From contig JACATO010001054.1 in NCBI GenBank assembly GCA_018389105.1, forward strand, positions 189,001 to 253,000: a stretch of DNA of 64,000 nucleotides, given 5' to 3'. Shown here one piece after another: positions 19,049-58,300 of this stretch (its first letter is position 1; each line of letters begins with the position of its first letter). The notes below the pieces were generated by a model, which worked only from the letters and a program-made list of their open reading frames with translations, was not told the origin of the DNA and did no database searches. The position numbers and the translations under genes were made by a program. This DNA comes from Nautilus pompilius (Eukaryota > Mollusca > Cephalopoda > Nautilida > Nautilidae).

Positions 19049-19121
19049 GCCGAAATAGCTCAGTTGGGAGAGCGTTAGACTGAAGATCTAAAGGTCCCTG
19101 GTTCGATCCCGGGTTTCGGCA
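19049..19121 (+). tRNA. tRNA-Phe(GAA), array copy 14
   Basis: Identical to copy 1 over 73 nt. The spacer that follows switches from one sub-family to the other at about 19.4 kb. Confidence 0.97.
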
Positions 19122-20445
19122 CGTAAGTCAACGCTTATTGGAATAAATATCGGAAATGCTTCCTTACTGAAATCTGAAAGACAGATTATTACGATACCAT
19201 TACTGTGATCTCATACTCGCATCAATTATTTTCACATCTGAAAAGTTGTACGTTTCAACAGACGGTAGTAGCTTTTTGTTACTTAAAGGAAGACCAGGAA
19301 ATCGTTTGCTCCAAAGAACAAATTGTGATAATAACGAACGCAACGATCGAAAAACGAGACTAACGGGAAAGTTTATTGGAATCTGATTGATTAACCCAAG
19401 ACGATTCCTTTCATTTTAAGATCATTTTTTTCCTCCGAGTTCACTTTGAACGTGTCATTAATTACCGATCGGAACCTATTATTAAATGAAATATCTACAC
19501 ATTTCGATATGTTCTCATCAGACCTTCATTCCGAGATAATAAAAAATGAATCAACGTAATTCACATGTGGAAATCTTTTAGTCACCACTTTCGGTAACCG
19601 GCTTCCCGCGCCAGCCAATAATTTGGTTTATGACTGTCGGTTATGCTTCAATAGAAAACGAAGTTTAAATGACGTTATTTATCCAAATGATGAGGATATC
19701 ATCTGTTTATTTAAATATTATATTTATTAATACTCTAAGATATTACAATGTCGTAAACTATTAAAATAACATTTCATCAGCAAAAGGAATCAATAGGACT
19801 GTATTTATTGTACCTAGCGCTAACGATGCTAAAACGATATTACAAAGTTTTTTTATCGTATCAGTCTTCATTTGAACTGCTGAAAATGAGATATACTCAA
19901 ATGAAATTGATGAAAAATTCCGACTACCTTCACCTGCGGATTCTTGTATAATTCCCTTTTATCTTAAAGAGTCTCACATCATCTGCTAATCAATCATTTC
20001 CTTACCGATTCCTTCAATAAATAGAATATCTTCAAAAGAAAATATTTTCGAAAATGCGGTAACCTTTCGTGTGTAATTTATGATTATACTTATTGTCAGA
20101 TACTTCCAATCATGGTTATATTTTTGACGTACTATTGGTTATATAAATGAGATGCACGATTACCAGACGAACATAGAAATTACTCTAGAATGTGACATCA
20201 CAACAGATTGTGTCTGTTTTCATTTAAAGACTATTCTATTGATTAATAAATGTGCCGCGGACGTAAGATGATTAATTCGAGTATAAAGACATGGAAATTA
20301 ATAGCAGCAACAAATAAGATTCTACATTCATTAGAAGAAAGCAGAAAATTATTCCGATAAATAAAAAAATGAAATCGAAACAAAGATTCAATATGATTAA
20401 ATTTACGGATTAAAGAAGGTATAAGCCAACTTTTAAGTAAGAATG

Positions 20446-20518
20446 GCCGAAATAGCTCAGTTGGGAGAGCGTTAGACTGAAGATCTAAAGGTCCCTGGTT
20501 TGATCCCGGGTTTCGGCC
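20446..20518 (+). tRNA. tRNA-Phe-like copy 15 with T-loop and discriminator changes
   Basis: This 73-nt copy has GAA anticodon and intact stems. The B box reads GGTTTGATCCC instead of GGTTCGATCCC, altering the nearly invariant C56 of the T loop that normally pairs with G19. The discriminator base is C instead of A. Both changes are expected to impair transcription, folding or charging. It is the last full-length copy before the array edge. Confidence 0.85.
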
Positions 20519-21851
20519 CGTAGTTCAACGCTTATTGGAATAAATATCGGAAATGCTTCCTTACTGAAATCTGAAAGACAGATTATTACGATACCATTAC
20601 TGTGATGTCATACTCGCATCAATTATTTTCACATCTGAAAAGTTGTACGTTTCAACAGACGGTAGTAGCTATTTTCGTACTTAAAGGAAGACCAGGAAAT
20701 CGATTGCTCCAAAGAACAAATTGTGATAATAACGAACGAAACGATCGAAAAACGAGACTAACGGGAAAGTTTATTGGAATCTGATTGATTAACCCAAGAC
20801 GATTCCTTTCATTTTAAGATCATTTTTTTCCTCAAAGTTCACTTTGAACGTGTCATTAATTACCCATCGGAACCTATTATTATATGAATTATCTACACAT
20901 TTCGATATGTTCTCATCAGACCTTTATTCAGAGATAATCAAAAAATGAATCAACGTAATTCACCTGTCAAACATGTGGAAATCTTTTAGTCACCACATTC
21001 GGCAACCGGCTTCCCGCGCCAGCCAATAATTTGGTTTATGACTTTCGGTTATGCTTCAATAGAAAACGAAGTTTAAATCACGTTATTTATCCAATTGATG
21101 AGGATATCATCTGTTCATTTAAATATTATATTTATTTATACTCTATGATATGACAATGTCGTCAACTATTAAAATAACATTTCACCAGCAAAAGGAATCA
21201 ATAGGTCTGTATTTATTGTACCTGGCGCTAACGATGCTAAAACGATATAACAAACTTTTTTTATCGTATAAATCTTCATTTGAACTGCTGAAAATGAGAT
21301 ATACACAAATGAAATTGATGAAAAATTCCGACTACCTTCACCTGCGGATTCTTGTATAATTCTCTTTTATCTTAAAGAGTCTCACATCATCTCTAATCAA
21401 TAATTTCCTTACCCATTCCTTCAATAAATAGAATATCTTCAAAAGAAAATATTTTCGAAAATGCGGTAACCTTTCGTGTGTAATTTATGATTATACTTAT
21501 TGTCAGATACTTCCAATCATGGTTATATTTTTGACGTACTATTGGTTATATAAATGAGATGCACGATTACCAGACGAACATAGAAATTACTCTAGAATGT
21601 GACATCACAACAGATTGTGTCTGTTTTTATTTAAAGACTACTCTATTGATTAATAAATGTGCCGCGGACGTAAGATGATTAATTCGAGTATAAAGACATG
21701 GAAATTAATAGCAGCAACAAATAAGATTCTACATTCATTAGAAGAAAGCAGAAAATTATTCCGATAAATAAAAAAATGAAATCGAAACGAACAATCAATA
21801 TGATTACATTTACTGTTAGAAGAAGGGCTAAGCCCACTTTATGGAAGGTTG

Positions 21852-31705: not shown

Positions 31706-34700
31706 GTTCCGTCCAGTGGTGGGATTCAAATATTTTAACAACCGGTTCTCTCTCAAAAAGTATGTCATTTTGGCCCGATATAGGTCCAAGGGTTGATCTA
31801 TGGGCTGCCGAACTGCCGCGTTCTACAGTTTAGCAAATCAACTTATTAATTATAATTATTTCCCAAATTAAAAAAAAATGCCTAAACAACGGTTAAAGCA
31901 TCACTATAATAACATCGAATAGACTCTATATTAGACTATATAGTTAATGAACTAAGTAATACGAAGATATATCTACGTATATGCATGTTTGATTGTTTGT
32001 GTTTTTGAATTATTATTACTATTATTATTAATTATACATAATACTGGTTATAAATTTTATGATTTTATGTATTCTTCAATTTTCTGAGCCAGGTAAAAAT
32101 AAAAATACTTTAGTGTTTGCTGCATTTCCATTGAATGTTACCATTTGGGCAAAAAAAAATAATAACAAAAATTCTTTACCTGGGTCTTTTATTAATTTAA
32201 CATTTGTAATCTTTCACTTTAAAAATTTCCAAATAGCCACTTGATTGTCATCAATGTCTTTGTCTTTCTTTTGTTTGACCCTGTTGTTGTCATCAGCAGA
32301 GTGGTTTTTTTAAGCCATGTTTTGGCCGAAGGAGTGGCATCCCATGAGTCCAATCAGATTAATTGTCTTAAGGTTTGCTACATTCTCAACTGTAAGGCGG
32401 CTTCTTTTATCTGAATATATAATATTCATTCTTGAAAAACCTCTTTCTGCCTCTGCAGAACTGACAGCAATAGTACTGACAATATTTTTAGCCTTTTGTA
32501 CACTTTGAGGAATCGCAGGGTTGTGGGAATTTTGTAGGACATTTTCCACATAGTCACAGAAATCATTAATGCTGATTTCATGATGGAAAACTTCACTGAA
32601 TTCACTCATTTTTTCTTCTGCAGCTTTCCAGGGTACAACAACTTCCTCAATGTTCCACAAATTTGGTTCAGGCAAGTTTATCAGTTCATGAATTTTGTTG
32701 TCATTTTCTTGTTCATTGTTCTTTGATGTTAAATGATCACAGTTCATCAACCTGTTTTTCATATTTTCTATCACTGCCTCCAGTAGCTTTTGACAAGGAA
32801 GGCTAACAACTTTGTTGTTTTCAACGAACTGAATATCCTTAAAGGCATCTGAAGCAACTCTGACATCAATTTCCTTTTCAAAGGTTCCCTTACTTTCTTT
32901 GAGCATTTCAAATGCCTTAATGGACCTTTTTATTAGTTTTTCAGCTCTTGGCAAAGTTAAACTTCTAGCTTGAAGGACATTAGAAAGTAAGGAAATTTCT
33001 TGCAGTATGTCTATCATCAGTGCCAAATCATCCAAGAAATGCTTGTTGCAAAGACGGGCACCTATCCCTGAATGTTTTGTCTCACTAGAGAAATATTTGT
33101 ACAATGCTGGATAAGCACGCCACACAGCAAGTGCAGATCTTAGACTGCAAGCAGCCCATCTTGCTCCCAGAACTCTACCTATCTTCAGAATTTGTTGTCC
33201 AAGTTCTTCTGAAATTTTGAAGAGTTGCATTTGGTTTTTGTTTGATTGGTGAAAGATTGTGTAGATTTTATCCATGAATATTTTGAAGTGATTCACTTGT
33301 TTTATATCATTGACAGAATCATCCAAAACAAGTTGCAAACGATGATTTAAACAATGCCAAATGACAATGTTAGGAAAATCATTTTTAAGTCTAATGCCTA
33401 CCCCAGAATTGCGGCCAAGCATTAAACTTGCCCCATCTGAACAGAAAGCAATCAAATTATTTCTCAAATATTCATTATCAAATCCACCATCGTGCAAACT
33501 CTTTAACAAAGATGCATATATTGTTTCTGCTCCCTGTCCTTCCAATTCGACCAAATCAAAGAAAATTGTTGGTGATAGATCACAATCTTCAATCTTCAAA
33601 AAAATTATAACCACAGGCTTACTAGATATAGTTGAAGCTTCATCTACGATGACACAGATTTTTAAATTTTGTTCAATAATTTTGGTAAATATTTCATTTT
33701 TTTTATCTCGTTTGCAATGTGATCAACTATTTTCACAGCAGTTTTGCGAGAATGAAGTCCAACACCCATGTCAACTCCATTTTTTATTTGAAACTCAATC
33801 TCATCTGCAACATCAGAAAATGGCCTGCTTCTTTTTGCTAAACTGTAGACTGTATTGAAAACTCTGCGTGTAGAGGCAAAATGTTTCTGGTTCGTTTTAT
33901 TAATGCATTTTGTAATTGCATCATCTGCACTATCCTGTACCTGCTTTACACAAACACTATGTGCCTTTGATGAAAAATGCTCTTTCATTTTTTTCCTGAG
34001 AGATGCTTGCTGGACGGTTTTATCCTTCCCTGAGGCTTCAACACTGCAGCTTCCCCATTCAATTGACGTGTGAATTCCCTTCATGTTTAAGGAATCAAAT
34101 TTGGCACAGTGATCACAACCAAGTTTCTTGCTACGAACAATCAATCCATTATATTTTTTTTGGAACTCCTCATATTGCTTCATACTCCAGCAGTCTGGAA
34201 GAGATGAGGCGGCATCTGCCTCATCTGTAGGTGGCACAGTATCAGAAGCAGAAGTTTCATCAGTATCATTCATCAAAGATGGCTGTGTTACTGTTACGTC
34301 CTCACTAGCCTCTTCCTCTGAACTGTCAGTTCTTGGGATTTTTCGCATGAACTTTAGTATATTCTGTTGCCGCTTCATTTTAAGGGCTGAAGTCTGAAAT
34401 GTAAAAAATTGCTTCACTAGGTACTAGGATTGCTACAATATTTCCACTGGGCAATGTAAAATAGTGTTTTTCTTCAATGGTAATTACGAGAATAATTTTC
34501 ATAATCAGAAGGTAGTAGCATAAAAGTATCTACAACCATATCTAACAAATATCATTTTAGATACCTCTTGTAATAGGAGTAGGAATTACAAATTAAATGT
34601 GCAAAAATGAATATCTAAAAAAATTATTATTAATGGCCTAGCACTATAATGCGGGTAATGAGAACATTTGTAATGTAACTGGTAGTGTTCACCAGTTCAT

Positions 34701-35383
34701 GTAATTGTTTCATAATTATATAACACAATACTTTTTAGCATTTAAAGTCTTGAAATTATAAGAATTAATAATTTCTTACAGTTTATCACACAAGAACTGC
34801 TCAATCTGCAATGTTGAACCAGCAGATACAATGGCAAATTACAAGCTCAAAACTAATTTTCTCCATTGTTCAGCATAAAAAACACTGTATATTTTAAAAT
34901 ACTAAGTCAGCTGTTTTAGCTCTAAGGGCTTTAAAAGTCCAATGTGCTCAAAAGTATCGGATATACTAACGGATTTTCTGCAGCAAACCAAAGCTAAATA
35001 TAATTAGCAGATGATAAACTCATTAGAAATGGCCCGTAGAAAGCAGCCGACCATTGATTATGTTGCCAAAATTTGATTTTTTCATTTATTTTTCATTTCA
35101 TATTCGAAGAATAATGGGGGGATCCCCCCCTATGGACCGATGTGGGGGCGAGCCCACCCTCAGGTCCGATAGTCGCTGTACATTTCACTTACTAATAAGG
35201 GATTTTTATCTATTTTCTGCAGCTGTAGATATTTCTAAAACCAAGATGAATCATGCGATATGTAGCAAGAATAATTGGATTGATGCCTTATGTTTTGATG
35301 ATAAAATAGGTTAAGGGCTAACAATCGGTTCGCGGAACTCATGAAATTCCAGGAACCGGCTGAATCCCACCTCTGGCTCCGTC
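31706..35383 (-). mobile_element. Complete hAT transposon (hAT-1) with 8-bp target duplication
   Basis: The element itself is 31,714-35,375 (3,662 bp). Its ends are CAGTGGTGGGATTCA and, inverted, CAGAGGTGGGATTCA, with a further AACCGGTT-type subterminal match. Flanking 8-mers GTTCCGTC (31,706-31,713) and GCTCCGTC (35,376-35,383) differ at one base, as expected for an aged hAT target duplication. The transposase lies on the - strand. The stretch at 34,420-35,300 is AT-rich 5' non-coding sequence of the element. The transposase is frameshifted, so the copy is probably non-autonomous. Confidence 0.93.
32310..34417 (-). pseudogene. hAT-1 transposase, broken by one frameshift
   Basis: Two adjoining frames on the - strand together give an hAT transposase of about 700 residues. 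Frame 1 (34,417-33,662) has an acidic N-terminus and then a BED/TTF-like zinc finger with C101-x2-C104 and H147/H153. Frame 2 (stop at 32,310) contains the DDE core, with a VDEAST block just before its first listed codon and then FCSDGASLM. It also has the hAT WHCLNHRLQL block and the C-terminal dimerisation block SSAEAERGFSRMN with the last acidic residue. The frames shift in an 8-base homopolymer at 33,697-33,704. One extra base there would restore continuity, so this is a single mutation or an assembly error. The architecture resembles KIAA1586/ZMYM-type hAT proteins; that sub-family assignment is inference. Confidence 0.88.
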
Positions 35384-37540
35384 GCTGTTGAAGGTGTCTC
35401 TACCTACTCCTCCCCTGACCTCGATCCACCTCGGTTTATCGCGAGACTTTCTTAGCCGCCTTCCATCTGTCTCAGGCTTCAAATGCCGAACAAGATTCTA
35501 AGGTGTAACCCTAAAATGGCCACTCCGGATAAAAAAGAACTTGGTTCGTGAAACAAAACTGTAATTCGCATGTCGTTTTGTCCGCCATTTCTGAAGGTCA
35601 CCGTGAGATAGTCGGGGTGACATGGCCACCTTTCCTGACCGTTGTCCAAATAGAAAGAGAAGGTCTGGCAAAGCATCAAATTTAGACCTTATTATGGGTC
35701 GGTCTTAGTCTTTCAGGGACACCTATGGCACTTTGTCGGGCATGTGTTTGAGCCACAGGAAGTTTCGGACGCATTGTAACTTTTGCAAACGATCCTACGC
35801 TGAGTTACTCAAAACTGCATCCGCGGGGTTCGGGAGGGCGGAAGTGACGGCTTACTCGCCAGCGCCTCACGACGGCACTTTTCCGGCTTGGCCGTTCGAC
35901 CCTTTTCTCTATGGTGGCAGCCGCCTGGACCTCTGAAACTTGAACTGGATCGATGATCTCCCGATCCGAACCTTCCCCCGACACCGCTAGATTCACGTAC
36001 CACAGTCTTTATGTCGGCTCACTGAATTACTTTATTTTATATGTTATCGTTTATTCTGTTCACAAGTGTCCTCTTCTTTCCATTGTCCGAAGGTTCGCTT
36101 TTGCTTTAGATGTTTGTTTCGCATCCGCTCTAGAAACACGTGATGGATAAGTAGCCCGTCGCAATTACATCCAGAAATAACTGGTAATGCCGACCGCATT
36201 CTCCGCTCGCCCCTCTCATCAATTAATCAGCTAATTCCCTCACTACGACGTAACGCACACTACATTTGCTAACGGGAACACCGGGCAAAGTGTCGTACCC
36301 ACCACAACGCAGAATAGATAAAAAAATTTTAAAAAGGCGATTAGGGTTCTAATATTTTTCCTTGGTTCAAACACCGACGGAGACAATGAACGCGCAGCGG
36401 TTACGATAAGCCGCTGGTCGCTTCTGTCTTTGCAGACATCCTCCCTGGCCACCGAGGTACGGTCTTGGGTACCCTGCTATTCGTCTCCAGATGTGTCTCG
36501 AGAAGACTCTGCACGGCAGACCGGCATAAACAAAAAGTCACTTCGCAGCAAAAGGTGATGGGGGACTAAGCTCTTTAGCTCTTCACTGTAAAAAAAACAA
36601 AGGATTTTGCTTTTCTTTCTTTAAAAAAAAAATCGTAATGATTGAAAGAAAGGCATTTCCAGTCCCCCGCTCCAAGTCAGCATCCTTTTATCCTCCTGTT
36701 TGTTTCTAAGTTTAATTAGTTTCCAGGGAACAGACGCATCGCCAGCGACGTGCCGATGCCCTGCTTACCTCTCTTCCTCCTCTTTTTACTTTCTCCCTCT
36801 TCTAAACAAACCGTCTTTGCAATATTAAAAGAAAAACAACAGAAGAACCGATTTCCTCCACCTGCCGCTTCAGCATCCGACCACAGAGGGGTCACAGACG
36901 TGCGGACCAAACGACTTTCGGCGTCAGCATTGATAAGCGATAGTTACCTTAAACTTGAGGAGGAGGAGGAGACGAGATCGCCAGCTATACTGTTTTTTAA
37001 AGATGCGAATAAACAAGCTGAATATACTGTTCCACTCGTTGCATAAGCCAGGAACTGATCTAACCACGTATCATAAATATGTAAATTTTACGCAAGTTTG
37101 CCTATATATATATATATATATTGCTAATATGTACATCTAGTGCCGAGCTTATAGGAAAGAGAAGCGAGAAACGATTATTTTCCTAATTCTCTAGAACAAT
37201 TACGGACCTGGCGGTGTAAGGGGTGGGGAGGGAGTTCGTGCCTCCTCAGGTGACGAGCGTGTGACTAAACATAGTTGTCCTCTGTGCCGATACACCCACG
37301 GTCTTTATGAAAGTTGGCCGGCGATCTGGGAAGTACAGGCGGGAAATTCGTATCCGTCTGGAGAATAACCCCGAATGACGGAATAACCCATTCTTAAAAA
37401 AAGATTATTCTAATTTCAAGGGGTGCACCTACGCTGAATTAGAAAAAAACACCTCTTCTTTCTTTTTTTTTAATTGGAAAACCGTTTTGTAACTGTTTCT
37501 GCGTCAGTATGACTTCCATCATTTTCAGTTCTGGTATAGC
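35384..37540. other. Intergenic region upstream of the secreted-protein gene
   Basis: GC-richer mixed sequence with many short open frames on both strands, none with a recognisable domain. A short (TA)n run lies at about 37,103-37,120. GGGAAATTCG at 37,341-37,350 resembles a kappaB site and lies about 200 bp before the TATA box of the next gene. That match is weak. Confidence 0.5.
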
Positions 37541-37543
37541 GAC

Positions 37544-37550
37544 TATAAAA
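37544..37550 (+). promoter_or_regulatory. TATA box of the predicted secreted-protein gene
   Basis: TATAAAA sits 80 bp before the proposed start codon, giving a 5' untranslated region of about 50 nt if transcription starts some 30 bp downstream. It supports a Pol II promoter directly ahead of exon 1. Confidence 0.6.
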
Positions 37551-37623
37551 AAGCTGCGCGTCGTGGATTTCTATCCCTTTTTGGTCCAAATCACCACGAG
37601 TCCTCTGGCGCAGGACAGCAGCT

Positions 37624-37639
37624 ATGAAGTACATACAAG
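37624..37639 (+). CDS. Secreted-protein gene, coding exon 1
   Basis: ATG starts 16 coding bases (MKYIQ plus one base), ending CAAG|GTAACA. It is too short to be seen as an open frame alone. It is supported by the TATA box upstream and by joining in phase to a hydrophobic signal core in exon 2. Confidence 0.65.
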
Positions 37640-38207
37640 GTAACAACTTTGTCCCGATTTACTGTTGTTTTAGCCAACTCTGCTTCAGCAACCTTATTTT
37701 TAACTTAACTTTTTTAGTAGACATCAGCTAATACTATTTATTGTGTGCTGTTAGTATATGCGACTAAAGTTGATTCGTCTCCTCTCACCGATATCCTACT
37801 GCACCACTTATTTCCGATATCATGTTGTTTCTCTCTCTCAGACACGGTTGTCGTGGTAGCCATGCTGGCTACACTGCACTTTCCTGAAGAGGCCCGGACT
37901 ACGAAGGTCAGGCCACCTGCAAGCTGCCATCCCTGCGCAGGTAAAAAGAAACTGACGTCTACGGTCGTGTGGAACGTCACTAGAAAATCCACTGGAAAAC
38001 AAACTCCAAAACTGCTTTCAATCCATGGATATAGAATCAGAAAGGAAATCAAGAGGATAAACAGATTATTTGTGAGCATGATATTTTATTTCATTAAACA
38101 ATGGCATACAAAAATTTCCAAACGTCAGATTTATAAAAGAGAAACATTTTAATCTCTTTCCTTTGGAGTATTAGTTGCTGTTTTTATTATGTTTAGACAA
38201 AATATTA

Positions 38208-38269
<62 letters not shown>

Positions 38270-38464
38270 CTACGTAGATACATATATCGATATTCTATAA
38301 ATTATTTATATCATCGAACTGTCTTCCACGGTGCCATACCAACTACATTTAGATTCCTCGCTTCTTTCCATGCTTTGTATTTTTCTAGTCACAACAGATA
38401 AATGAAGTATCACCCGTGGTTTCGAAAATGACTCATGTTATCATCAATTAAAAAAAAAAAAAAA

Positions 38465-38536
<72 letters not shown>

Positions 38537-40548
38537 GGAAACCATGGGTACAGCGGTAAAACGAAACGTCTAGCTTCACGGTTCGTTTCTCTGAATTTTT
38601 ACTTTCTACATTAGACACCACCTCAAAAAGGGTACAATACAATAGGTGTTTTAAATATCCGCCATATCGGCATCCACGCCGACATTAGAGCGTCTGGCAA
38701 CCGAGCGACTCACCTCGGCACGTGTTTTGACAGTAATGGAGATTGCAGCCTTAACAAATCTCTGTCGGCGGAGTTCGCAGATGGTAACTGGTTTTACTCT
38801 CCAACACACTCCACAGGAAAAACTCTGGTGCTCCATCTGTCGGCCAGTAAAGTGTTCGTCCATCCAAAGATGCCCTACATTTTTGCCCCACACTGAAAAG
38901 GGGTACGCTTTTCAGGCGCATGGTACCGCCATCTGTGGGCTTTCGAAGGAAACGCATCTTGGCGTCGAGACTGAATATGACTTTGTATGATAGAAAGTGT
39001 GTGTAAATATATATATATATATATATATTATCTTAGGAAAGACACCATGTATATGTGTGTGTATTATATATATGTATATTTAATTTTATTTAGCTGGAAG
39101 AATTCAGAATCACTCAGGACTTCGTGGATAATCTCGATATCGGTGTGAAAACTCCAATGAAATGGTGCAAACCCCAACATTCTGAAAGCCGAAAAATTCG
39201 GGTAAGGGCCTACAATTCTTTGTTTAGCATAATATGTGGAGACAACCCCGAATCTCCGAAAATACTGCTTAATGTGCTACTTCTATTCGCTGTGCATAGT
39301 TATGTGGGTAAACGAAAAGATTCTACCGCTTGCTTTCTAAAATCTGAATTAAGAATAAGGGAGGGGGTAAGAATAAACCAGAAAGAGCGGCTATCTCCAG
39401 CATCAGAATTTCCAAAATAGTCAAGTTGGTTTTACCCGTTTGCTTTAATTTGAGTTGACTACGGGTGAAGGAGTCGATGACGACATTCTCTTCGGAATTA
39501 GTGGAAGTAAGGTTATCTGTCGATTGTTTCAAAAGAGGGCTTATGGGTTATTGTGAAATTAGCTTCAAGTCCATTCACGTCGCCAGGCTAGAAGCGAGTC
39601 ATCTTCCGTGTTGTCGTGGCGTGATTGTAATCGTTCTGACTTATAGTCGAAAAGGACCCAGTCGTGCTTAGTGTTTGTTTGTACATAAATCTGCTCACCT
39701 CACGGAGATTGATACAGATCCGGAGCTGGCTTTCTTTTGTCACTCTGAGCAAAATTCTGTGCATTCGCCCCCCCCCTCCACACACACACACACGTATCAT
39801 CATCATCACCACCAAGAATTTTCATTACCAATCAATAATTAGTAATAAAATAATAGTCATTTGTCAATACTTTAAACTTAAATGATATTACAGGCTGCCT
39901 TAACCTGTGAAACTGCAAATTCACATAATCACTATGACCACGTCACCTTTCCCTCCCCTTTCCTCCGCTGCTATAGTTCTGAGAGTAAATCCCTTCTCTT
40001 TATTTTTTTGTTTTCAGGACCCCGTCCAAGCGATAGTAGACGCATACGAGACCATAGTTAACTGGTACTCTTGTTTCGAGGAGGCCATGAGGTTCCAGGC
40101 AAAACTAAGGGATTTCGAGGATGGTAATCTGAATCAAAAGCTTCTTTCGATTCTTTGCAAAATAAAAACGGATTTCCGCGTCGGTGAATCGGTTTGTCGA
40201 CGCTGCCCGACCCAGACGGTGGTCAGCAACACGGAGCGTATCAACTTCGCCACCAATGTTCTGCAGAATGGCTTGAAGATCTTCACCAAAAGATGCTTCG
40301 ACAGCCTGGAGTCGGTCGCCAAGAAAGTGAACGGCATTAAGGGACCGGCGATGGCGAGCAGGAGCAGGCAGAAGAGGGTTAGGAACTCTAACCGGTGCCG
40401 GAGGAAAAGGAAGGACGGAAATAAGTGTCGGAGGAGGAATAGGAAAGACGGAAAGAAGTGTCGGAGGAGGAATAGGAAAGACAGAAAGAAGTGTCGGAGG
40501 AGGAATAGGGGGCAGAAAAATAAGAACACGGAAAGTACAATTTCTTAA
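37624..40548 (+). CDS. Five-exon gene for a predicted secreted helical protein with a basic tail
   Basis: Spliced model: 37,624-37,639, 37,842-37,940, 38,734-38,783, 39,094-39,201 and 40,018-40,548, with intron phases 1, 1, 0, 0 and 267 residues. All introns have GT/AG ends and all junctions keep one open frame. Residues 1-20 look like a signal peptide with core TVVVVAMLATL. Cysteines at 34, 37, 49, 80, 110, 138, 151, 154 and 184 could form disulfides. Predicted helical stretches lie at about 40-69, 92-126, 128-146 and 162-197. Residues 203-260 are a lysine/arginine-rich tail built from repeats of KCRRRNRKDGK. A TATA box precedes it and AATAAA follows the stop. I do not recognise the family. 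A four-helix, cytokine-like secreted factor is inferred from shape, length and the short phase-1 first exon. No N-glycosylation sequon is present. Other secreted peptide families remain possible. Confidence 0.7.
37842..37940 (+). CDS. Secreted-protein gene, coding exon 2
   Basis: 99 bp between a strong acceptor (gtttctctctctcag) and a strong donor (CAG|GTAAAA). It encodes the hydrophobic signal core and the first cysteine pair (CHPC). It enters in phase 1 and leaves in phase 1. Confidence 0.7.
38211..38266. repeat. (TC)n microsatellite in intron 2 of the secreted-protein gene
   Basis: A pure TC run of 56 bp. Confidence 0.98.
38450..38534. repeat. Poly-A followed by (AAT)n microsatellite
   Basis: About 17 A residues run directly into about 70 bp of AAT triplets, within intron 2 of the secreted-protein gene. 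Confidence 0.98.
38734..38783 (+). CDS. Secreted-protein gene, coding exon 3
   Basis: 50 bp between acceptor gtgttttgacag and donor ATG|GTAACT, encoding VMEIAALTNLCRRSSQM. An alternative acceptor 15 bp downstream (gattgcag) also keeps the frame and would remove five residues. This is the least certain exon. Some phase-correcting exon is needed, because exon 2 joined directly to exon 4 hits a stop. Confidence 0.55.
39006..39029. repeat. (TA)n microsatellite
   Basis: A short AT dinucleotide run in intron 3 of the secreted-protein gene, followed by TGTGTG and a second short TA run. Confidence 0.9.
39094..39201 (+). CDS. Secreted-protein gene, coding exon 4
   Basis: 108 bp (36 codons, phase 0 at both ends) between acceptor tttaattttatttag and donor CGG|GTAAGG. 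It starts LEEFRITQDFVDNL and contains the KWCKP cysteine. Confidence 0.72.
40018..40548 (+). CDS. Secreted-protein gene, terminal exon 5
   Basis: 531 bp after a very strong acceptor (tttatttttttgttttcag), open to TAA at 40,546-40,548. It encodes residues 92-267: three predicted helices with six cysteines, then the basic repeat tail. It is GC-richer than the flanking DNA, and AATAAA follows at 40,553-40,558. Confidence 0.8.
   Translation, partial: DPVQAIVDAYETIVNWYSCFEEAMRFQAKLRDFEDGNLNQKLLSILCKIKTDFRVGESVCRRCPTQTVVSNTERINFATNVLQNGLKIFTKRCFDSLESVAKKVNGIKGPAMASRSRQKRVRNSNRCRRKRKDGNKCRRRNRKDGKKCRRRNRKDRKKCRRRNRGQKNKNTESTIS
40396..40515 (+). repeat. In-frame minisatellite encoding a Cys-Arg-Lys tail
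   Basis: Four tandem coding units of about 30-33 bp, each starting TGTCGGAGGAGGAATAGG or a variant, encode CRRRNRKDGKK-type segments inside exon 5. The repeat keeps frame and cysteine spacing. Such tails commonly bind heparin or other polyanions in secreted proteins; that role is inferred. Confidence 0.85.
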
Positions 40549-40552
40549 AATT

Positions 40553-40558
40553 AATAAA
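40553..40558 (+). terminator. Polyadenylation signal AATAAA after the secreted-protein gene
   Basis: AATAAA begins 5 bp after the stop codon, and further AATAAA-like motifs follow at once. Being so close to the stop, a later signal (for example at about 41,428) may be the one used. Confidence 0.4.
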
Positions 40559-40559
40559 T

Positions 40560-41761
40560 TAATAAAAATAATAATAATATAATCTCAGGAATTGGAGAAT
40601 CACGGTGTAATCTAATTATTTGTCGGACAGAGGATTTTTTTAAAATTATATTTTTAAAGAACAACATTTAATAAGTTTCATAAAGTTGATACGCATTAAT
40701 TTTCCCCCTCTAAACTTTATTTTCAAGGCAACTCTGCTCGCTAAAAAATTAAAATATATATTATATAAAATTATATTATTGTCTTTCATATGTTCGTCTC
40801 AAAAAAAAGGAAACTTCGGTAAAGATGTTTTTGAATTATGTTTTTTTTTTTTAAAAAAAAAGGAGACAAATAACAAGTTGAATACGAAACTAAGCCTACA
40901 CTGAAAGACTCGGTAATGGAGTTTGTAGCACGTATTCGTGTTGATTATTTGTTGGTATTTATTCAGAAATATTTACGCATTAAAATCAATTATCGCAGTC
41001 TCTCAAAAGAAACTGACTACTCGCGTTTGTAGAGAAACTTCATAGTTTTTGTTTCATGCTCCATTATTAACCCCATCCTCACCCCATTATATGTTCTTAT
41101 AAACCTGGGTAAGGTTTGTAGTAGGATGTATGTGAATGGCTAATGCTGTAACCCAAACAAAACGTTTGTGAAGATATACCATAGTGGTTCTGAATTCAGA
41201 CCTGGTAATAGGATCGCAGAACTTCTGTATTTCATTTCCTTGCTTTTTGATTGTTTTGAATTTGTATCCTTGAACTAACATCTTAGTTCATCTGTGTTGT
41301 CTTTTTTCCTTTTCATGTTAAATTTTCATGCAATATACGCTGAAAATTTCTGTATAGCTCACCTTGTTTGTTTGTTTTGCTTATATACATGTACAGTATA
41401 CTGTAATTCGTATTGAATCGCTTGTAAATAAACATTATGTGAAATATACAATGTTGTTACTTTATACTACTACCGCTAATAATAATAATAACAATATTTT
41501 AGCAATTTACCGTTGATTTCGCACTCACCTTTAACTTTTCAATGTTTCAACGTTCAAACGTAATTAATATTCAGATTAACAATTCTACTTTCACTTTTAA
41601 AATTCTAGCTAGGGGAGGTAATCAGTACATTTGTTTTGTGTCATCCCCCTCTACATACAATTTAATGTTCCTAAATTAAACACCAACACAGAAAATGTAA
41701 GAATAACTTTAACATGAGTATATTAAGAATTGTAGTTTCACCGTAGATCATTTAAGACAAT

Positions 41762-41762
<1 letters not shown>
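40560..41762. other. AT-rich 3' flank, no gene recognised
   Basis: AT-rich sequence downstream of the secreted-protein gene. It contains several AATAAA-like motifs but no coding frame with recognisable features, and may include its 3' untranslated region. Confidence 0.5.
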
Positions 41763-41821
<59 letters not shown>

Positions 41822-41832
41822 TATTATTATTA
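41763..41832. repeat. (ATT)n microsatellite
   Basis: About 70 bp of ATT triplets. Confidence 0.98.
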
Positions 41833-42671
41833 CACGCGAAGTTATCAGAATTATCGTCCTTTCGTTTATAACAAAAACATTCTTTAAAAATAAATATCCA
41901 CTTACTCCATGCATAATGTTACTCTTAATTCCAGTTTATATAAAGTTGGATTTGGTTTACACCGGTGTGGACCTGATCTCGTTTCTATACCAAGTAAACA
42001 AGTAAAAAAAAAATTTCTTTGGAGAAAACAAACACACAAAGGAAGTTACTTGTTAGGCAAGTTTGTTTGTGTTTTCATGATGTCATTTGCTTCCGCATGA
42101 AAAGTGACACGTTGACTCTATTGCTAATGGTTTTAAAACGCCATATTACCGAGGTAACTAATAAATTTCATAAATAATATTGCATCTTACAGACAAAAGA
42201 TTCAATCATTTCAAACCAAACGCAAGACCATTACCGTAGTGTTATTGTCTAAATACGCTGAAGGACATTAGAAAAGCACCACGGGAAATTTTCAGAAGTT
42301 TCTTTACGCTGCGGCTAAGGCAAGAAAGACTATGTAGCAGATACACAGCGCAAAGAGGAAAGTTAAACCCCTCAGGACATTTTAATAAGTGGAAGCTGAA
42401 CAGTACATGGACTACTACTGCATAAGGGTCATTAGCAAGTAGGGCTCTGCGAGAACCACAGTGCACGCCGCCCTTTTAAGGTTTTGGGCGGAGACCTGTC
42501 TCCCGTCATTGATGGCGAATTTCAGGTTCGCAATCGTCGTTCGATCTCATTCCACAGATGTCCAGATGGCACAAAAACAGAGGACAAGCCAAAAGAGGCA
42601 GTGGGGGCGCGGGTATGGCTTGTTGCTGGAGGTAGCGCTGACCTGATTTGGCATCATGAAGTTCTCCATGG
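41833..42671. other. Intergenic region, no gene recognised
   Basis: Unique sequence leading to the target site of the hAT-2 insertion. Short open frames only. Confidence 0.5.
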
Positions 42672-44757
42672 CGTCCAAACAGTGGCGGATTAACCTAGTA
42701 GCAAAAGTAGCATATGCTACGGGCCCCACATTTTCGGGGGGGGCCAGCAACATTGGCAATAAGGATTTGATACATTTTGATTTTGATAGAAGCAGGGAGC
42801 ATGGTGGACCTCAGCATTTCTGAACAGTGAACACCCCTTTGCTATGTGTGGTGGATTAATCCTATATTATATAGATATATTTTTATAACTACTAAAATAG
42901 AGCTTATATATTAAAAAAAGAAGAAAATTGTTTCCAATCCATAACAAGGTTTAACAGTTTGCCTTTATTATAATTAATATTCATTCTCACAAAAAGAAGC
43001 TTGTTAAGTGAAAATTCCTCAAACAATATTAAATGAATAAAATCTTTATCACCAAAACCATATACATGTGTGTCTTGTATTTCAATAATATTATCCATAA
43101 GGGCCTAAGAAAGATACAGACATACATGAAAAAAGCAAACTTTAATGGAAGAAGCATATATTTTTTCCTTCCCTTTCATCAATACTTTTCCAAAATTACG
43201 ATACCTTCAAAAAACCATATTTACTTAATATAATGCATTTTTATATATTATTCCAGGAAACATTTTCTTAAACTTTATCGCCATGTACATAATTGACTAA
43301 TTGCTCTTTAAATCAAATGATATCTTGAATTCATGAAAAATAACAATAAAAAATCTATAATAATTTTAAATATATACTGGAATATGACTCCAATATGGTT
43401 AAATCAAATAAGTAACTGTAATATATCTAGCACAGGTGAACGAATAGAGTTAAATGAGTTTTATCATCTTATAAATAAATAATTTTCCATGGTGTAATAT
43501 TATCTCTAATAGTCCAATTCCATCTGTAACATCCGATTGCAACATGATTTATATAATGTGTTTGTTGTTTTCATCTACAATTAAATCTTTGCTTCCTTAG
43601 ATACTATTAATACTTAAAGAAAAATTTGAATATTTTTGTTGTTTGAGACCAAAAATTCTTTCATAGTGAATATTGTTAAACTCTACTTTTATTTATTATG
43701 TTTTTATTTTTATTGTTTTTTCGATTAACCAATATTTTATAAGATCCATATTGGTATATACACAACTCCTTGGCGACATATATATATTTATAAACTATAT
43801 AAACTATTTGTTTTTTAAATTTAAAATTTAAATGCATATTTCATTGAATTTTTTTCCATTTCAGATAGCAATGAGCAATAGATATATTTTGGGGCGTCAT
43901 TATGCTTCTGGAAGTGCAAAACGTAAAGCGAAGGAAGAAAAAGAAAGAAGAGACCAACTTGTGATATCAAAAACACGCAAGTTGACAGAATATTTTGATG
44001 TTCATGCAGATGGTGATGGTTCTATAATGGCTGAAGCTGGAAATATAGGAACAACTAGTACTAGTGTGGCAGAAAGCATGATACAGCAACAGCCAGCATC
44101 CATTGAATGTGAAAGAACAAGTGAAAAGAACAAGTACTCTAATGATATTGGTGAATGGCCAAACAATCTAGATGATTGTGATCGTGAATATTGGATAGCC
44201 AAGGGATGTGATGAATGTCAACATGCTGATAGTGACTTCTCTTCATCCATGCGATTGTATGACAATGAAAATAAACCTAGACACTGTCAGAAGTCTTATT
44301 TCACATATGTTCATAACGAACAAACAAGCAACATGCAAGAAATTGGTTATGCTATTCAGAGAGCAAAGGAAGCCTATTTTGTTTCCCATGCAAGGTTATG
44401 ACTTCAGGATGTCCATCAAAGTTTAGTGGAGTCTGTGGAGAGGGTGTTAATGACTGGAAAAGGCAAGCAATCTATTACGTCGACATGAAGAAAGTTCCTC
44501 ACATAGACAAGCTTTAATTTCACTGTTGATGCGCAAAAACAAAGCTGAACGTATCGATACACAACTTGTGAAGGAAATGGCGAGTGAACAAAAGTATTGG
44601 CGCACCCTTCTACAGCGAGTGATTGAAGTTGCAAAGTTTTTAGCAGAACGAGGCCTTTCATTTCGTGGTAGTGATGAAACTGTTGGCTCTCCTCATAATG
44701 GAAATTACTTGGGGTTGTTAGAATTACTGGCCAAGTTTGACCCTTTTCTGGCAGAGC

Positions 44758-47700
44758 ATATAAATCAGTGGTTCTCAACGTGGGGCGTACGCCCCACAGG
44801 TGGGCAATCCGATTTTCAAGGGGGGCAATTGAGTACGAATGAAGAGGTCTGGGTCCAAATTTTCGATTTTTATTTTTTGGATTTTCCATCAGGTAAAGTT
44901 TATGTTTCAGATGCTATTTTGAGTAAATATTTTTTTTGTGAAAAAGGTCTTTATTGTATAGTTATTACATAATCACTGTGCCATCGCTCTTCATGCACGT
45001 CACACAAAGTGCACGAGGTCATGGAAGAACCTTATTTATTGAATTTGATTTAGAAATGCGATTCAAAGGGCTTTTGCTAAGTTACCATTATAATAACTGT
45101 TTCCTCCGTTTTCTCTCAAAGGAGAGCATTTCCATTTTCTGAAAATTCAGAGCTCGTAAACAAAGTTGTTGTTTTGGTGTTTTCACGCAAGGTAATTGAT
45201 ACATATTTCTTTGGTTGCTCGTGAATATATTTGATTGTTTAGTATTATGATGATACGAGAAGATACATAAAGTGTCAGAGATGAAAACTTAATAGTCCAA
45301 ATGCTAATATAATACAACAGTCTTGCCAAATTCATCTGTATGTGTGTTTGCATATTTTTGTCAGACGATTATCGTCAATACATTTGTGTGATACAAATTT
45401 CATACACATTCGTAAAAATCTGGTGTACCGCACTGTCTGTCCTTAGATGCTGTATAAAACGAATCGGCATTGTTTTATTAATTATGTGTTAACTTCATTT
45501 CATTTAGTGTTTACTTGAACATTCTAATTATTTTATTTCATTTTTGTGTTAACTTAAACGTCTTAAATTCTGAAAGTGCATTTCACTTCTTAAGATTACT
45601 CATTTATTTCAGTCACAGCCCCTATGCATAAAATGAGTAGTGCAAGCAAAAAGAAAGTTCGTCAGTATTCAGAGGAATTTTTGAAATTTGGTTTCATACC
45701 CGCTGCTCATGATGAAAGGTCACCTTTCTGTCTCTTATGCCAACAATGCTTGACCAACGAATCAATGAAACGAGGTCGTCTTGAGGCGCATTTGAAGGCG
45801 AAACATAGTGCGTATGTAAATTCAGATTTGAATTACTTCAAATCTTTAAAGAATAAGTTTGAAAAAAGATCAACAATAAAGTCTCTGTTCACTGCACAAA
45901 CTGTTACTATCAGTCGTACTCTTGAGGCAAGTTATGAAATTTCTTTACTCATTGCTAAATCTGAAAAAAATCATACTATAGGGGAGGTTTTAATTAAACC
46001 ATCAATATCTGCATTTCTTAAAACAGTTCTGGAAAAAGATGACAAAGATGTTAAAGCCATGCCACTCAGTAACGACACTGTTAGGAGAAGAATAGATGAA
46101 ATGAGTGAAGATATTGAAACATAACTTGTTGAAAAGCTGAAATCAAGAAAATTCTCAGTACAAATGGATGAATCAACTGTGAGAGGCAGTGAGGCCTTAT
46201 TGCTAACTTATGTAAGATATATTGATAAAGGTGAATTTGTTGAAGAAATGTTATTCTGCAAATCTTTAGATACGACCACTACCGCTGCTGATATATATAA
46301 TAAACTAAAATACTACTTAGATATCAATAATATACCAATGGAAAACATAACATCTTGTGCAGCTGATGGTTCTCCTGTTATGATGGGCAAGAAAAATGGC
46401 TGCTTAAAATTGATGAAAGATGAGAATCCGGAGATGCTTCTTGTGCACTGTGTTATTCATAGAGAGAACTTAGTGTCGAAAAATATTTCTCCTGTACTTA
46501 ATGAGGTACTGAAATCAGTTATAAAATCTATCAATGCTATCAAAACTAATGCCAAATGTGAGCGTCTTTTCGAGAAATTTTGTGAAGATAACAATTCAGA
46601 CTGTGTGAGACTTTTACTTCACACTGATGTACGGTGGCTTTCGAAAGGGAATTGTTTGAAAAGATTCATGGAACTGTTTGATGAACTTAGTGGCTTTCTA
46701 AGTGACAAGCCTGAAATGAAGCACCTGCTAACCGTTGATGGAAAAGCGTTTTTGAGTTATTTAGCAGATATTTTCGAAAAATTGAACGTGTTGAATAAAC
46801 GACTTCAAGGAACAAATAAAACACTTGTTGATGCAAAGGCGAAGATATTTGGCTTTATTTCATTTATCGAGTTATGCCAAAAAAATATTTCTGACAAAAA
46901 TTTTGACCAATTTCATTGGCTAAAAAAATGTGAGCCGACTGAGGCTGCTGTGCTTGTCATTGTGGATCATCTGAAAATATTGGCCTCTGATTTTAAAGAA
47001 AGATTTTCTGATTTAAAACAGATTAATTTTCCATCGTGGGTGATGCAGCCAGTGCTTGTGGATTTATCTGATGTTTCAGTGCAGTACCAAGAAGAACTCT
47101 CAGAAATAAAAAATGATGAGTCAGTTAAAAGTTTATTCAACATAAAAGGAGCGATGGCATGGCTTTGTGATGAGACAGAAACTAAATACCCAAATTCAAC
47201 TAGCTTTGCAAGGAAACTGTTGTTACCGTTTCCATCTTCATATTTAGCTGAATGTGGCTTTAGCGTTGTAAATGATTTGCTACTGAAGAAAAGAAATTCA
47301 CTGGATATCAGTAAACGAGGAGATTTGAGACTAAAGCTGACTAAATTAGTGCCTAATATAAAATCTCTTTGCAGCAGGCATGAAGCACAAGGGTCTCACT
47401 AACTTTATTCCGCTTTTCTTGAGGTGTGCTCAAATGGCATTTTGCATTTGATAGGAACCTATACTTTATTGTACAGTAATTAAAATGATCAAATAAGCTT
47501 CCATTCAAATTAGTTTGTGTTCATAGTACATTTCAGTTTTCTATTACATGTTTTGAATTTTTATTTGCTGTTTTTGTATGAGACAATCCACAAATATTTT
47601 CATAAATATAGAAATTTTCTCTCTCTTTATTACCTGTGAATTCTCTCTTATTATCACATGTATCATTATTAAAATCTAATACCACTTAATATTTTTTCTT

Positions 47701-47924
47701 ACAATTTTTTCAGTAATTTCTTGCTCAAAACTTTAACTGTCTTTTGTTTATTTCATTTTTCATGGATGCCATGTTCTTTTGAAGCTTGTTTAAACCAAGG
47801 TATTGGCGTTTTAAGCTTCTTCAGCTGAAACAAGAATTATATATCACCACATGGGGGCATCAGGATTTTAGAGGTGATTAGGTGGGGCATGGCCCAAAAA
47901 AGGTTGAGAACCACTGATATAAAT
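44758..47924 (+). mobile_element. Nested hAT transposon (hAT-3) inside hAT-2, exact 8-bp target duplication
   Basis: The element is 44,766-47,916 (3,151 bp). Both ends begin CAGTGGTTCTCAAC as an inverted repeat, followed by GGGGC-type palindromic sequence. ATATAAAT is duplicated exactly at 44,758-44,765 and 47,917-47,924. It inserted into the hAT-2 transposase reading frame in the same orientation, so it is younger than hAT-2. Its own transposase has a single internal stop. Confidence 0.96.
45624..47402 (+). pseudogene. hAT-3 transposase (BED zinc finger/ZBED5-like) with one nonsense codon
   Basis: A continuous frame of 592 codons is interrupted only by TAA at 46,122-46,124, consistent with one C-to-T change in a CAA glutamine codon. 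The N-terminus has a BED-type finger: CLLC at about residues 36-39, then HLKAKH. The hAT core follows: VQMDEST (first Asp), CAADGSPVMMG (second Asp), VHCVIHRENL and DVRWLSKG. The C-terminal dimerisation block LAECGFSVVNDLLLKKRN carries the final Glu. All catalytic positions look intact, so readthrough or a recent loss is possible. ZBED5/ZMYM6-type relatives are likely; the exact family is inferred. Confidence 0.9.
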
Positions 47925-49708
47925 ACTCATGCAAACAAAGGAAGGGGACATAAATCAAACTTATCTAAAACAATATGTAAGGAATTCATCAATATGATTG
48001 GATCCAACATACTGGATCACATTATCGGTGAAGTGAAGAAATACAAGTATTATTCTGTTTCATTGGATTCTACTCCAGATATATCTCATGTGGACCAGCT
48101 GACTTTGACTGTGTGCTATGTTTTGCCATCTGGACCGGTTGAAAGATTTGTGAAGTTTTTGGATATGGAAGGTGATAGTGATGAACAGCTCACTCAAAGT
48201 TTACTTGACTTTTTAAAGGAAAATGGCATTGATATAAAAGACTACCGTGGTCAAAGTTATGACAATGCCAGCAACATGAGTGGCAAGTATAGTGGCGTAC
48301 AAGCACAAATTAAAGAGCTGAATGAGTTTGCTGATTACATTCCATGTTTTGCACATTCACTAAATTTGGTTGAAAATTTTGCTGCTGAATGTTGTCAAGA
48401 AGCATTAATTTTCTTTCAATTTGTAGAAAGCCTGTACACATTTTTTTTCTGCTTCTACTTATTGGTGGGATCTCCTTCCTGTTGCATTATCTGATGGTGG
48501 TACTCATTTGCCCATTGTGAAAAGAATGTCAGATACAAGGTGGTCAGCTTGTGCAAATGCAACAAAAGCACTTTTACACGGCTTTTCTGCAATAAAACTA
48601 GTCTTGGATGACATTTCAAATAACAATGATCAGAAGGCAGAGTGCCGACAACAGGCTCGTGGACTACTTTCAACCATGATGAAGTTGGAAACAGGAATAA
48701 TGGTCATATTGTGGGATCAAGTATTACAGCGTTTTCAAATGACCAGTGCTTCTTTGCAATCTTCTGGCCAAGACTTGAACACAGCTTGTGCACTCTATGA
48801 ATCCTTGCATGGATATATTCAAGCTATGCGGTCTACTTTTTCTGACATTGAACAAAAAGCCAAGGATCTGACTGAGTGCGAAGATTATCAACAACAAACT
48901 CACAGAGAACGCAAGCGAAATCGCAAGTACGATGATTTCAGTGGTTCAAGCACTCTTGATCCACTCGTTGAATCTCAAACACCTTCTCAGAAGTTTAAAA
49001 CCCAAACATTTCTTGTTATTATTGACAGCTTGCTTTCTGCCTTGTCAAAACACCAGAAAGCTTATCAAATGTTGAATGGTGTATTTGGATTCCTTCATCA
49101 GTTACAGTCATTTACTCCTGAAGAGATTGTAAAGAGGTCATTAAATCTTATCAAATCATATCCGGAAGATCTGGAAGAAAGTCTTGGTGAAGAATTTGTG
49201 CAGTTTACTGAACTGTTGAAAACTGATCTTGCTTCTCATATTGGTGCCAAACAAGACCTTGTAGATTTACAGGTGTACCATTTGATAACTGACAATTCTT
49301 TGGAGTCTTGTTTTCCAAATGTAGAAAATGCATTGCGCATCTATTTGTCACTTATGATTACCAACTGCAGTGGAGAACGCTCATTTTCAAAACTGAAAAG
49401 GATTTTAAATGCACTAAGGAGCACCGTGGGTCAAAACAGGCTGAACAATCTCACTCTAATGAGCACTGAACATGAACTTCTGCGTGAAATAGACATTTCC
49501 AGTATCATCAACAAATTTACTCATGCTAAATCTAGAAAGTGTAACTTTTAAATCGTAGTTTTGTTACTTTTTTGACAAAACTGAATTACTTTATATGCAA
49601 ATAAATAATTTATGTTTTGATATTTATGTGCATTTTTTTTATTTTAGGGGCCCCTTTATAACATATGCTACAGGCCCGGCACTAGCTTAATCCGGCCCTG
49701 CGTCCAAA

Positions 49709-55300: not shown

Positions 55301-58300
55301 GAGACATAGCCTTAAAATACTGAAAGAAATCTTATTTTACAAGTTAAAGATCCACAAACTGTGAATAAACAATAGTTTTATTTTAATTAATTTAAATATT
55401 TTGTTCTTCAGTGAAATTGAAAATAAATACTGATACTGATTCACAAAATATATTTTGTTTAAATATAAATTCATGAAGACAGAGCCTTTTTTTTGTTTGT
55501 TTGTTTTTGTAATTTTAGCACTTTAAAGGTAATTGGTCTTTATTATTAATAATAGATTTTATAAAATCTTAATTCTCTCTGTCTGTCTCTTTGAGTGTTT
55601 CATACATTTACACATATTCTGTCTCTTACTCTTTCACACACTTACATATTTTCTGTCTTACTTTTTCACACTATCTTTCTGACTTTTACACATTCTCTGT
55701 CTCACTAAATCTTTCACACACATTCTCTTTGTCCCTCTCACTCATGCATTTATTTTTGTCTCTCTCCAGCACATATACCAGTAAATTCATATATTACTTC
55801 ATTTGCTTTGCACACAGCTAAATCACAATAATTGAAACAATAAGAAAAAACAAAAATAAAATTTTCCTTAAATTACAGAACAAAAAAAAAAGGAAAATTA
55901 AAATATTTACCTTTTATTATCGAAATAAGAAATTAAATAATGTTTATGGAAAAAGAAAAAATCTGTTGGTGCTGAACCTTAGTATTATAGGAAATTTCAT
56001 CAGTTGCTTTTATTTAATGACCATTAAATTTGAAACTTTTTTAGGATCATAACCAAAGTATTTCTGTTTCTTTTTTTTCCTTTATTTTAATTTAACTTTT
56101 TTTGTCTTTTTATGTGTTTAAATTATGTTGGATTTTATGCAAAATGAAGATGTTTGTTACATGGAGTCAAAATTAACCTGAACTCGTAATCGGTTCAGAC
56201 CACATTTTTTTTTTACTTCAAATTAGAACTGAACCAGATTGGGTAAAAAAATAATCTAATGGAGTCAATCCAGAACCGAACCGATTACAAACATGACTGG
56301 TTCACAGTTTAGTTCTTTCGTTTGAGAGATCTTTTAGCTTAATTGAAAACTCTGAAAGATAGTTGATTCAATTCTTGAAAATTTATGTTGTAATGTTTGT
56401 GCTAATGCTGATGATATTAGGAGCAGAATGTTGAGTATTTCCAGTGACATTCACTTGTCCGTCAAAGTGGATTGCTCTGTTTAGGTTATTAGCATCCAGT
56501 TTGTGAAAGATGATGAGATTGCAATACACACCATAGTTCTGAAAGAAATTAGAGAAAGACATACATCTCAAGAAAATGCTTCATGAACTACATAATGATA
56601 AATCAGTGTGCAGAAAATATACAGCTTAACAACAGATAACCGGCACAAGAATGATGACGATGAACAGGGAAGTGAAGGAAAAAATTACTTGATGTTGATG
56701 CAAAGGAAGAAGTTGGTCATAAAGAAACAGATTCAGGTGAGATGCATGGATTGCAACAAGCAATATTGACTAAACTTGGTACTGTTCTTGCAGTAACAAT
56801 TGCTCACTGCTCAGCCCACACTCTTCAGCTAGCAGTTGATGATATACTTATAGTATTGTTCATACAGTTGCTAAAGCTTGTTCTGTCTACAAAAAACTGA
56901 AATCTCAAATATGCATGGCTAATCATAAGAAACTGGAACTGTCTCATGAAATGGCACTCAACTTTTCATGTGATCAAGCACTTGCTCAAATTAAAGGAAT
57001 TCTGCCAGATATGGCAACATTATATCTTCAGCTTCATATCACAGATGCCGAGTGTAAACCATTAAACAAATAGCCACTTCTTTTAAACCAGTAAAAATAG
57101 CAACAAAGCAGCTTCAGTCAGAGCAGCTAAACATGGAGGACTTTTTTATGGCATACAGCTGAAATGTTAGCTTGAAACCTCAAGTGTCAGCACATTTCTT
57201 GTTACAGTGTTTCTAGATCAAAGATACGGGTGAGGGGACAAAGGAACAGAGCTAAAGTTCACCTTACCAAGGTATGCACTAGCATTGAAAGGTTGTCTGC
57301 TGAGTTATCAGCAGCAAGCAACCATAGCAGGTAGGAAGGGTAATGAGTGCCAAGATGACAAACTTGAGTTTCTGCATGAAAGACGATCCAGTAAAATAAG
57401 AGACTCATTTTGTTATGAATTTGTGATGAAAAACCACATTGGTAGAATTTTAGATTTTTTTACTCATGTGTCTTGACTAAGCTATATGAAAACATTTTAA
57501 AATACTGACATCAGCAAAGAAACACAGACTGGCTAAAGTCACACTGGCTGTTCCATCAACCAAGTTACTACTGATCAAGCCTACTCTGGTCTCAGGTTTG
57601 AGTTATCATTACATACAACAATCATCACGCAGGAGATCCTGGAAAACATTAGAGGTGCATCTCAAAAATTAGAATATCGTGGAAGAGTTCCATTTATTCC
57701 ATAATTTAATTCAAACAGTGAAACTTTCATATATTCTAGATTCATTACACATAAAGTGAAATATTTGAAGCCTTTTTTGTTTTAATTTTGATGATTACGA
57801 CTTGCAGTTCATGAAAATCAAAAATCCACTATCTCAAAATATTAGAATATTTCATAAGATCAATAAAAAAAAGGATTTATAATATATAAATGTCGAACTT
57901 CTGAAAAGTATGTTCATTTGTGCACTCAATACTTAGTTGGGGCATGCAGTGTGGCATGGAGGTGATCAGCCTGTGGCACTGCTGAGGTGTTATGGAAGCA
58001 CGGGTTGCTTTGATAGCTGCCTTCAGCTCATCTGTATTGTTGGGTCTGGTGTCTCTCATCTTCCTCTTGACAATACCCCATAGATTCTCTATGCGTTTCA
58101 GGTCAGGCAAGTTGGCTGGCCAATCAAGCACAGTAATACCATGGTCAGCAAACCAGTAACTAGTAGTTTTGGCTCTGTGGGCAGGTGCCAAATCCTGCTG
58201 GAAAAGGAAATCAGCATCTCCATAAAGCTTGTCAGCAGACGGAAGCATGAAGTGCTCTAAAATCTCCTGGTAGATGGCTGTGTTGACTTTGGACTTGATA

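Follow-up and report, generated by a model that had tools for sequence, protein, structure and literature searches.

Gene Model

The stretch of DNA analyzed in this study, referred to as the window, comprises 64,000 nucleotides of the Nautilus pompilius genome (assembly GCA_018389105.1, contig JACATO010001054.1, positions 189,001-253,000 of the forward strand), and coordinates are positions within it. The plus strand of the window contains a gene that is probably real and whose predicted product is small, secreted and mostly helical, contains cysteines and ends in a very basic tail. The gene was judged to be probably real mainly because of the construct at its 5' end and its matched splice sites. 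The letters from 37000 to 41500 were inspected, and the region from 37600 to 40600 was translated in all three forward frames. Splice sites were scored with matrices of general metazoan frequencies, and the scores are relative only.

The original prediction had assigned five exons and 267 residues to this gene, a model that needs correction. The model preferred here, which is the simplest one that keeps the reading frame, consists of four coding exons, whose 720 bases encode 239 residues and a stop codon (Table 1). The TATA box upstream of the ATG, the very short coding exon 1 with its phase-1 end, the hydrophobic leader, the donor at 39202, the acceptor at 40018 and the open frame were all confirmed. 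The third exon of the original prediction was not, and its interpretation was partly supported. The donor at 39202 was strong (6.6) and the acceptor at 40018 was well matched (6.5, phase 0). Both boundaries of exon 3 fall in phase 0, and its acceptor was weak (0.6). Exon 2 has an alternative donor at 37941 with a score of 3.2, use of which would move the end of the exon to 37940. In addition to the two AATAAA polyadenylation-type signals just 3' of the stop codon, a third was found at 41427-41432.

When two donors were allowed for exon 2, 34 models were enumerated, of which 31 had five exons and three had four. Only one of them reached 267 residues, and its third exon at 38734-38783 had an acceptor score of -0.5. 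Intron 2 contains an interspersed repeat that encloses this exon. A genome search with 38560-39000 as the query yielded 37 matches at E <= 0.001, self included, and 12 of the 36 non-self matches spanned the proposed exon fully. The five-exon model with this exon was set aside because of the repeat and the weak acceptor. A repeat-derived exon at 38734-38783 is possible, and its location in the repeat lowers the five-exon claim. Eleven five-exon models, with scores of 6.9 to 4.9, ranked above the best of the four-exon models (4.5), but these sums are not on one scale because those of the five-exon models include two additional splice sites. The extra exons of these 11 models were all within 38593-39000, except for one at 39037-39054. 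Lower-scoring five-exon models had extra exons outside or mostly outside the repeat, at 38278-38330 and 38994-39054. Other four-exon models, with products of 231 and 248 residues, are also possible. Among the copies of the repeat, the one on contig C2087 was 88% identical over most of the query, and the others were 66-86% identical over parts of it.

Tests of the Gene against Chance

The search for the 5' construct required an ATG, a first exon at least 6 and fewer than 60 bases long, a donor followed by an acceptor at a distance of 60-500 bases, and an early hydrophobic run. The thresholds were set just under the gene's own scores and were chosen after the construct had been seen. With these thresholds, the construct occurred once on both strands of 21001-64000, which is the 43 kb outside an array of tRNA genes, and in none of 60 dinucleotide-preserving shuffles of one 43 kb strand. 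As the thresholds were loosened stepwise, the plus strand gave 1, 2, and 8 starts and the minus strand gave 0, 0, and 1.

The open frame spans 214 codons, a length that no shuffle reached, either among 1000 of 39901-40600 or among 100 of 34501-43800. This frame is, however, partly made of a 33-base tandem repeat in the tail. When the tail was excluded, 4 of 500 shuffles of 39201-40400 contained frames of at least 165 codons, and 4 of 500 shuffles left the true frame of 40018-40399 open. Because shuffles matched it at this rate once the tail was excluded, the length of the open frame alone is moderate evidence.

Codon usage was compared with that of 14 hemocyanin open frames (5683 codons). The core of the protein scored 0.205 bits per codon, which was in the top 3.2% of 5000 random windows. 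Exon 3 was in the top 10.6%, and the tail scored negatively (-0.283). With the last exon taken as a whole, another of the plus frames (0.353, stops disregarded) scored higher than the true frame (0.022), as did all three minus frames (0.083-0.128). Codon usage was thus a weak test, and in part it speaks against the gene being coding. The GC content at third codon positions of the last exon was 0.65, vs. an overall GC content of 0.29 in the 3' flank. The observed/expected ratio of CpG was higher in the last exon (1.11) than outside the tRNA array (0.74); ratios at such levels are unlike those of most vertebrates. The host, which the original prediction took to be an invertebrate, is indeed a mollusc.

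Predicted Features of the Protein

The leader is hydrophobic, with an 11-residue Kyte-Doolittle mean of up to 2.59, compatible with the signal-peptide core originally described, and its -3 residue is unfavorable for a signal peptide. AlphaFold was run on the last exon alone and on its first 110 residues, each without an alignment, and the best of five models was taken. The confidence was low because no alignment was used. For the last exon alone, three helices were predicted at exon residues 2-30, 36-53, and 71-104 (helices B, C, and D) with a mean predicted local distance difference test score (pLDDT) of 54.5. The same three helices were predicted for the first 110 residues, with a mean pLDDT of 68.0.

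The original prediction had described four helical stretches. Three of them correspond to the predicted helices B to D at low confidence, and the fourth, helix A, could lie at the start of exon 3. The moment of the first 20 residues of this exon was 0.38, vs. 0.23 in shuffles (P = 0.11). Helices B and D were amphipathic (P = 0.011 and 0.034, respectively), and helices C and A were less so (P = 0.075 and 0.108, respectively). When helix A was taken by choice as the first 20 residues of exon 3, the loops measured 17, 5, and 17 residues. We infer that this long-short-long spacing of the predicted helices is what an up-up-down-down bundle would require.

Nine core cysteines had been counted originally. 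The four-exon protein has six, which is an even number, in addition to four in the tail. Without the leader and counted from the start of helix A, the core of 146 residues and the tail together comprise 212 residues with an isoelectric point (pI) of 10.6. The basic repeat tail rich in cysteine, arginine and lysine was found as originally described (Table 1). Within it, the 33-base tandem repeat at 40400-40509 has 3.3 copies with 94% matches, which suggests a recent expansion. At the border between core and tail is RQKR, which would suit a furin motif but carries little weight in so basic a stretch.

Table 1. Positions of the gene, its predicted protein features and the repeat in intron 2 within the window.
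Feature	Position	Strand	Description
TATA box	37544-37552	+	TATAAAAAA, 80 bases 5' of ATG 37624
Coding exon 1	37624-37639	+	MKYIQ and one base, ends in phase 1; donor AAG/gtaaca, score 2.4
Coding exon 2	37842-37906	+	Remainder of leader, DTVVVVAMLATLHFPEEARTTK; acceptor 5.1, donor 37907 3.9
Interspersed repeat in intron 2	about 38593-39000		Found by genome search; contains 38734-38783
Coding exon 3 (exon 4 of the original prediction)	39094-39201	+	36 residues, LEEF...RKIR; one cysteine; possible helix A
Open frame	39904-40545	+	214 codons; stop TAA at 40546-40548
Coding exon 4 (exon 5 of the original prediction)	40018-40548	+	176 residues and stop; predicted helices B, C, D; basic tail
Predicted helix B	40021-40107	+	Exon residues 2-30, AlphaFold
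Predicted helix C	40123-40176	+	Exon residues 36-53, AlphaFold
Predicted helix D	40228-40329	+	Exon residues 71-104, AlphaFold
Basic tail	40348-40545	+	66 residues; 33 lysine/arginine, 4 aspartate/glutamate, 4 cysteines; pI 12
RQKR	40366-40377	+	Possible furin site at core-tail border
AATAAA polyadenylation-type signals	40553-40558, 40561-40566	+	Read in sequence, just 3' of stop

Searches for Relatives and Pathway Partners

Within the libraries searched, the protein proved to be an orphan, in agreement with the original prediction, which had recognized no family. Three spliced versions were compared with Pfam-A by hmmscan up to an E value of 10, with filters that drop most weak matches. No family scored above its cut-off, and no cytokine family was found. 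The only sub-threshold match noted was CDC73_N, with E values of 0.11 and 0.12 for two of the versions and none for the third. In the same search, neither Unpaired (PF15972) nor Egg_lysin (PF01303) matched any of the three versions. Moreover, none of the PDB sequences recognized the protein, and a search of viral contigs gave no match to it.

The genome searched comprises 727.6 Mb in 2558 contigs. No second copy of the gene was found there, as the last exon and exon 3 each matched themselves alone. The Unpaired profile had no match in the genome up to an E value of 10, though no control matched it either. Similarly, Egg_lysin had no match up to an E value of 1, and the controls gave none, so that absence was not established. 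PF09240 was the only profile searched for class I cytokine receptors; it had no match in the genome and matched no control. For STAT, one exon of the domain was found, a stretch matching positions 2-38 of the 133 in PF02864 with 40.8 bits vs. a cut-off of 27.

Neighboring Features

Upstream of the gene, 15 tRNA-Phe genes with the anticodon GAA were found on the plus strand at 880-20519, with a spacing of ~1.4 kb; they apparently form one tandem array. Long frames resembling hAT-type transposases were at 32310-34423 on the minus strand and at 45594-49551 on the plus strand. Dimer_Tnp_hAT matched 48427-49548 with an E value of 5.5e-9, and its matches at 32310-33719 and 46125-47399 were below the cut-off. 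A frame at 57880-58485 on the minus strand matched the DDE_3 endonuclease (E = 3.1e-11) and is, from its letters, presumably Tc1/mariner-like.

Elsewhere in the genome, two hemocyanin loci (C557:780470-791999 and C1362:511129-522124) contained seven Haemocyan_bet_s domains each, 14 in total. They are either two genes or two uncollapsed haplotypes. One hemocyanin functional unit matched multi-unit hemocyanin chains of the PDB, including KLH1, over nearly its full length. In addition, 117 COX1 matches were found, most of which were cut short or had internal stops even beyond TGA, and they are probably many nuclear copies of mitochondrial DNA. One nuclear COX1 copy could be read under the invertebrate mitochondrial code, and the frame adjoining it was read by eye as ND2. 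The letters of both look molluscan, and they follow each other as in chitons, vetigastropods and cephalopods. These mitochondrial sequences and the hemocyanins mark the host as a mollusc, and a crustacean source, which microsatellites had suggested, was rejected on their account.

Interpretation and Rival Explanations

A secreted helical protein with a basic tail is a plausible description of the gene product. The layout fits that of a helical cytokine in its short first exon with a phase-1 end, its later introns in phase 0, its three predicted helices with a possible fourth, and its long-short-long spacing. The resemblance is one of layout; the helical cytokine reading is a fair hypothesis, and the name is not yet warranted. 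A likeness to interferon-gamma, suspected by eye, is not claimed. Our best bet, tentative and less likely than not to be right, is that the protein serves as a helical ligand, retained in the matrix, for a class I cytokine receptor that feeds into JAK/STAT.

If so, the four coding exons would give rise to a precursor of ~239 residues, which the leader would export from the cell. The mature part would be a disulfide-braced four-helix bundle, with helix A contributed by exon 3 and helices B, C, and D by the last exon. The lysine/arginine tail, which may be cleaved at RQKR, would bind heparan sulphate or matrix and thereby retain the protein near the producing cell; basic tails often tether ligands to heparan sulphate. 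The bundle would act as a short-range ligand that bridges class I cytokine receptor chains of the gp130/Domeless type, and the bridging would start JAK/STAT signaling, like Unpaired does in flies. That the protein is, in full, a molluscan helical cytokine of an undescribed family, a class I receptor-JAK-STAT ligand and a functional counterpart of Unpaired and IL-6 with a matrix-binding repeat tail, seems quite unlikely.

Among known systems, Unpaired of Drosophila (Upd1-3, the ligands of Domeless) is an invertebrate secreted helical ligand, as is proposed for the protein of this study, and is basic in character. Different from Unpaired, however, the present protein did not match the Pfam family of that name. 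Recombinant Upd3 was reported to be mostly alpha-helical by circular dichroism (PMC7378365), and the Unpaired proteins were described as having no sequence similarity to cytokines (PMC5645147). Similar to the pattern of the long-chain class I cytokines of vertebrates (IL-6/IL-12 p35), the gene has a very short first exon ending in phase 1 and later phase-0 introns, and its predicted helices allow a plausible four-helix spacing. Different from these cytokines, its predicted helices B, C, and D are in one exon, it encodes a basic repeat tail and its product had no sequence match.

Parts of the pathway have been described in molluscs and other invertebrates. In Aplysia, a single JAK, a single STAT and five SOCS were reported, and the cytokines listed were MIF, progranulin, TNF and IL-17 (PMC9334734). 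A 2017 paper stated that, before it, pathway-activating ligands of invertebrates had been described in Drosophila only (PMC5645147), and a 2022 paper that molluscan JAK/STAT components had been reported in part only (PMC9195186). No molluscan four-helix cytokine was among the matches listed in our literature search, from which such a report may be missing although in print.

Several points qualify the fit to a helical cytokine. A short first exon is common among secreted proteins. The AlphaFold model is of low confidence, and fold searches with it returned generic helical bundles. Against a JAK/STAT ligand, a lectin and peroxiredoxin 4 are reported to activate the Domeless of shrimp (PMC5645147, PMC9195186), and the oyster interferon-like protein, a cytokine in a mollusc, was reportedly induced by virus via cGAS/STING (PMC10855445).

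A doubtful alternative, and the best of the rivals, is that the product is a reproductive or glandular secretion restricted to its lineage. In the style of abalone lysin, a basic helical protein from the acrosome, the egg mass or a gland would bind other molecules and would not signal through a receptor. Basic helical secretions serve reproduction in molluscs, and abalone sperm lysin is molluscan, secreted, helical and strongly basic. The host of the present gene is likewise a mollusc, and the predicted protein is helical and very basic. Its lack of relatives in the libraries searched would also be expected of fast-evolving reproductive proteins. However, the Egg_lysin profile matched neither the protein nor, in a search where no control matched, the genome, and the six core cysteines differ from the condition of abalone lysin, which is not known to have disulfides.

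Alternatively, the tail may be the working part of a cationic defence or matrix protein that binds microbes, nucleic acid, heparan sulphate or shell matrix, with the helical part as its carrier. The composition of the tail, with its charge, high pI and cysteines, and the apparently recent expansion of its tandem repeat are consistent with such a role. This explanation is nonetheless unlikely, as the core is longer than the tail, the predicted helices B and D are amphipathic and basic tails are also borne by signaling proteins. Finally, it is improbable that there is no functional coding gene in the modeled form, whether because the model is degenerate or due to chance or because the last exon is part of another transcript: the weak acceptor of exon 3, the codon usage and the shuffles that matched the tail-less open frame speak for it, but the single occurrence of the leader construct, the third-position GC content of the last exon and the well-matched donor at 39202 and acceptor at 40018 speak against it.

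If the cytokine reading is false, the gene adds one further orphan secreted protein. If the protein is a helical JAK/STAT ligand, however, direct tests of how the molluscan pathway starts would become possible, and the question of how old helical cytokines are could be reopened.
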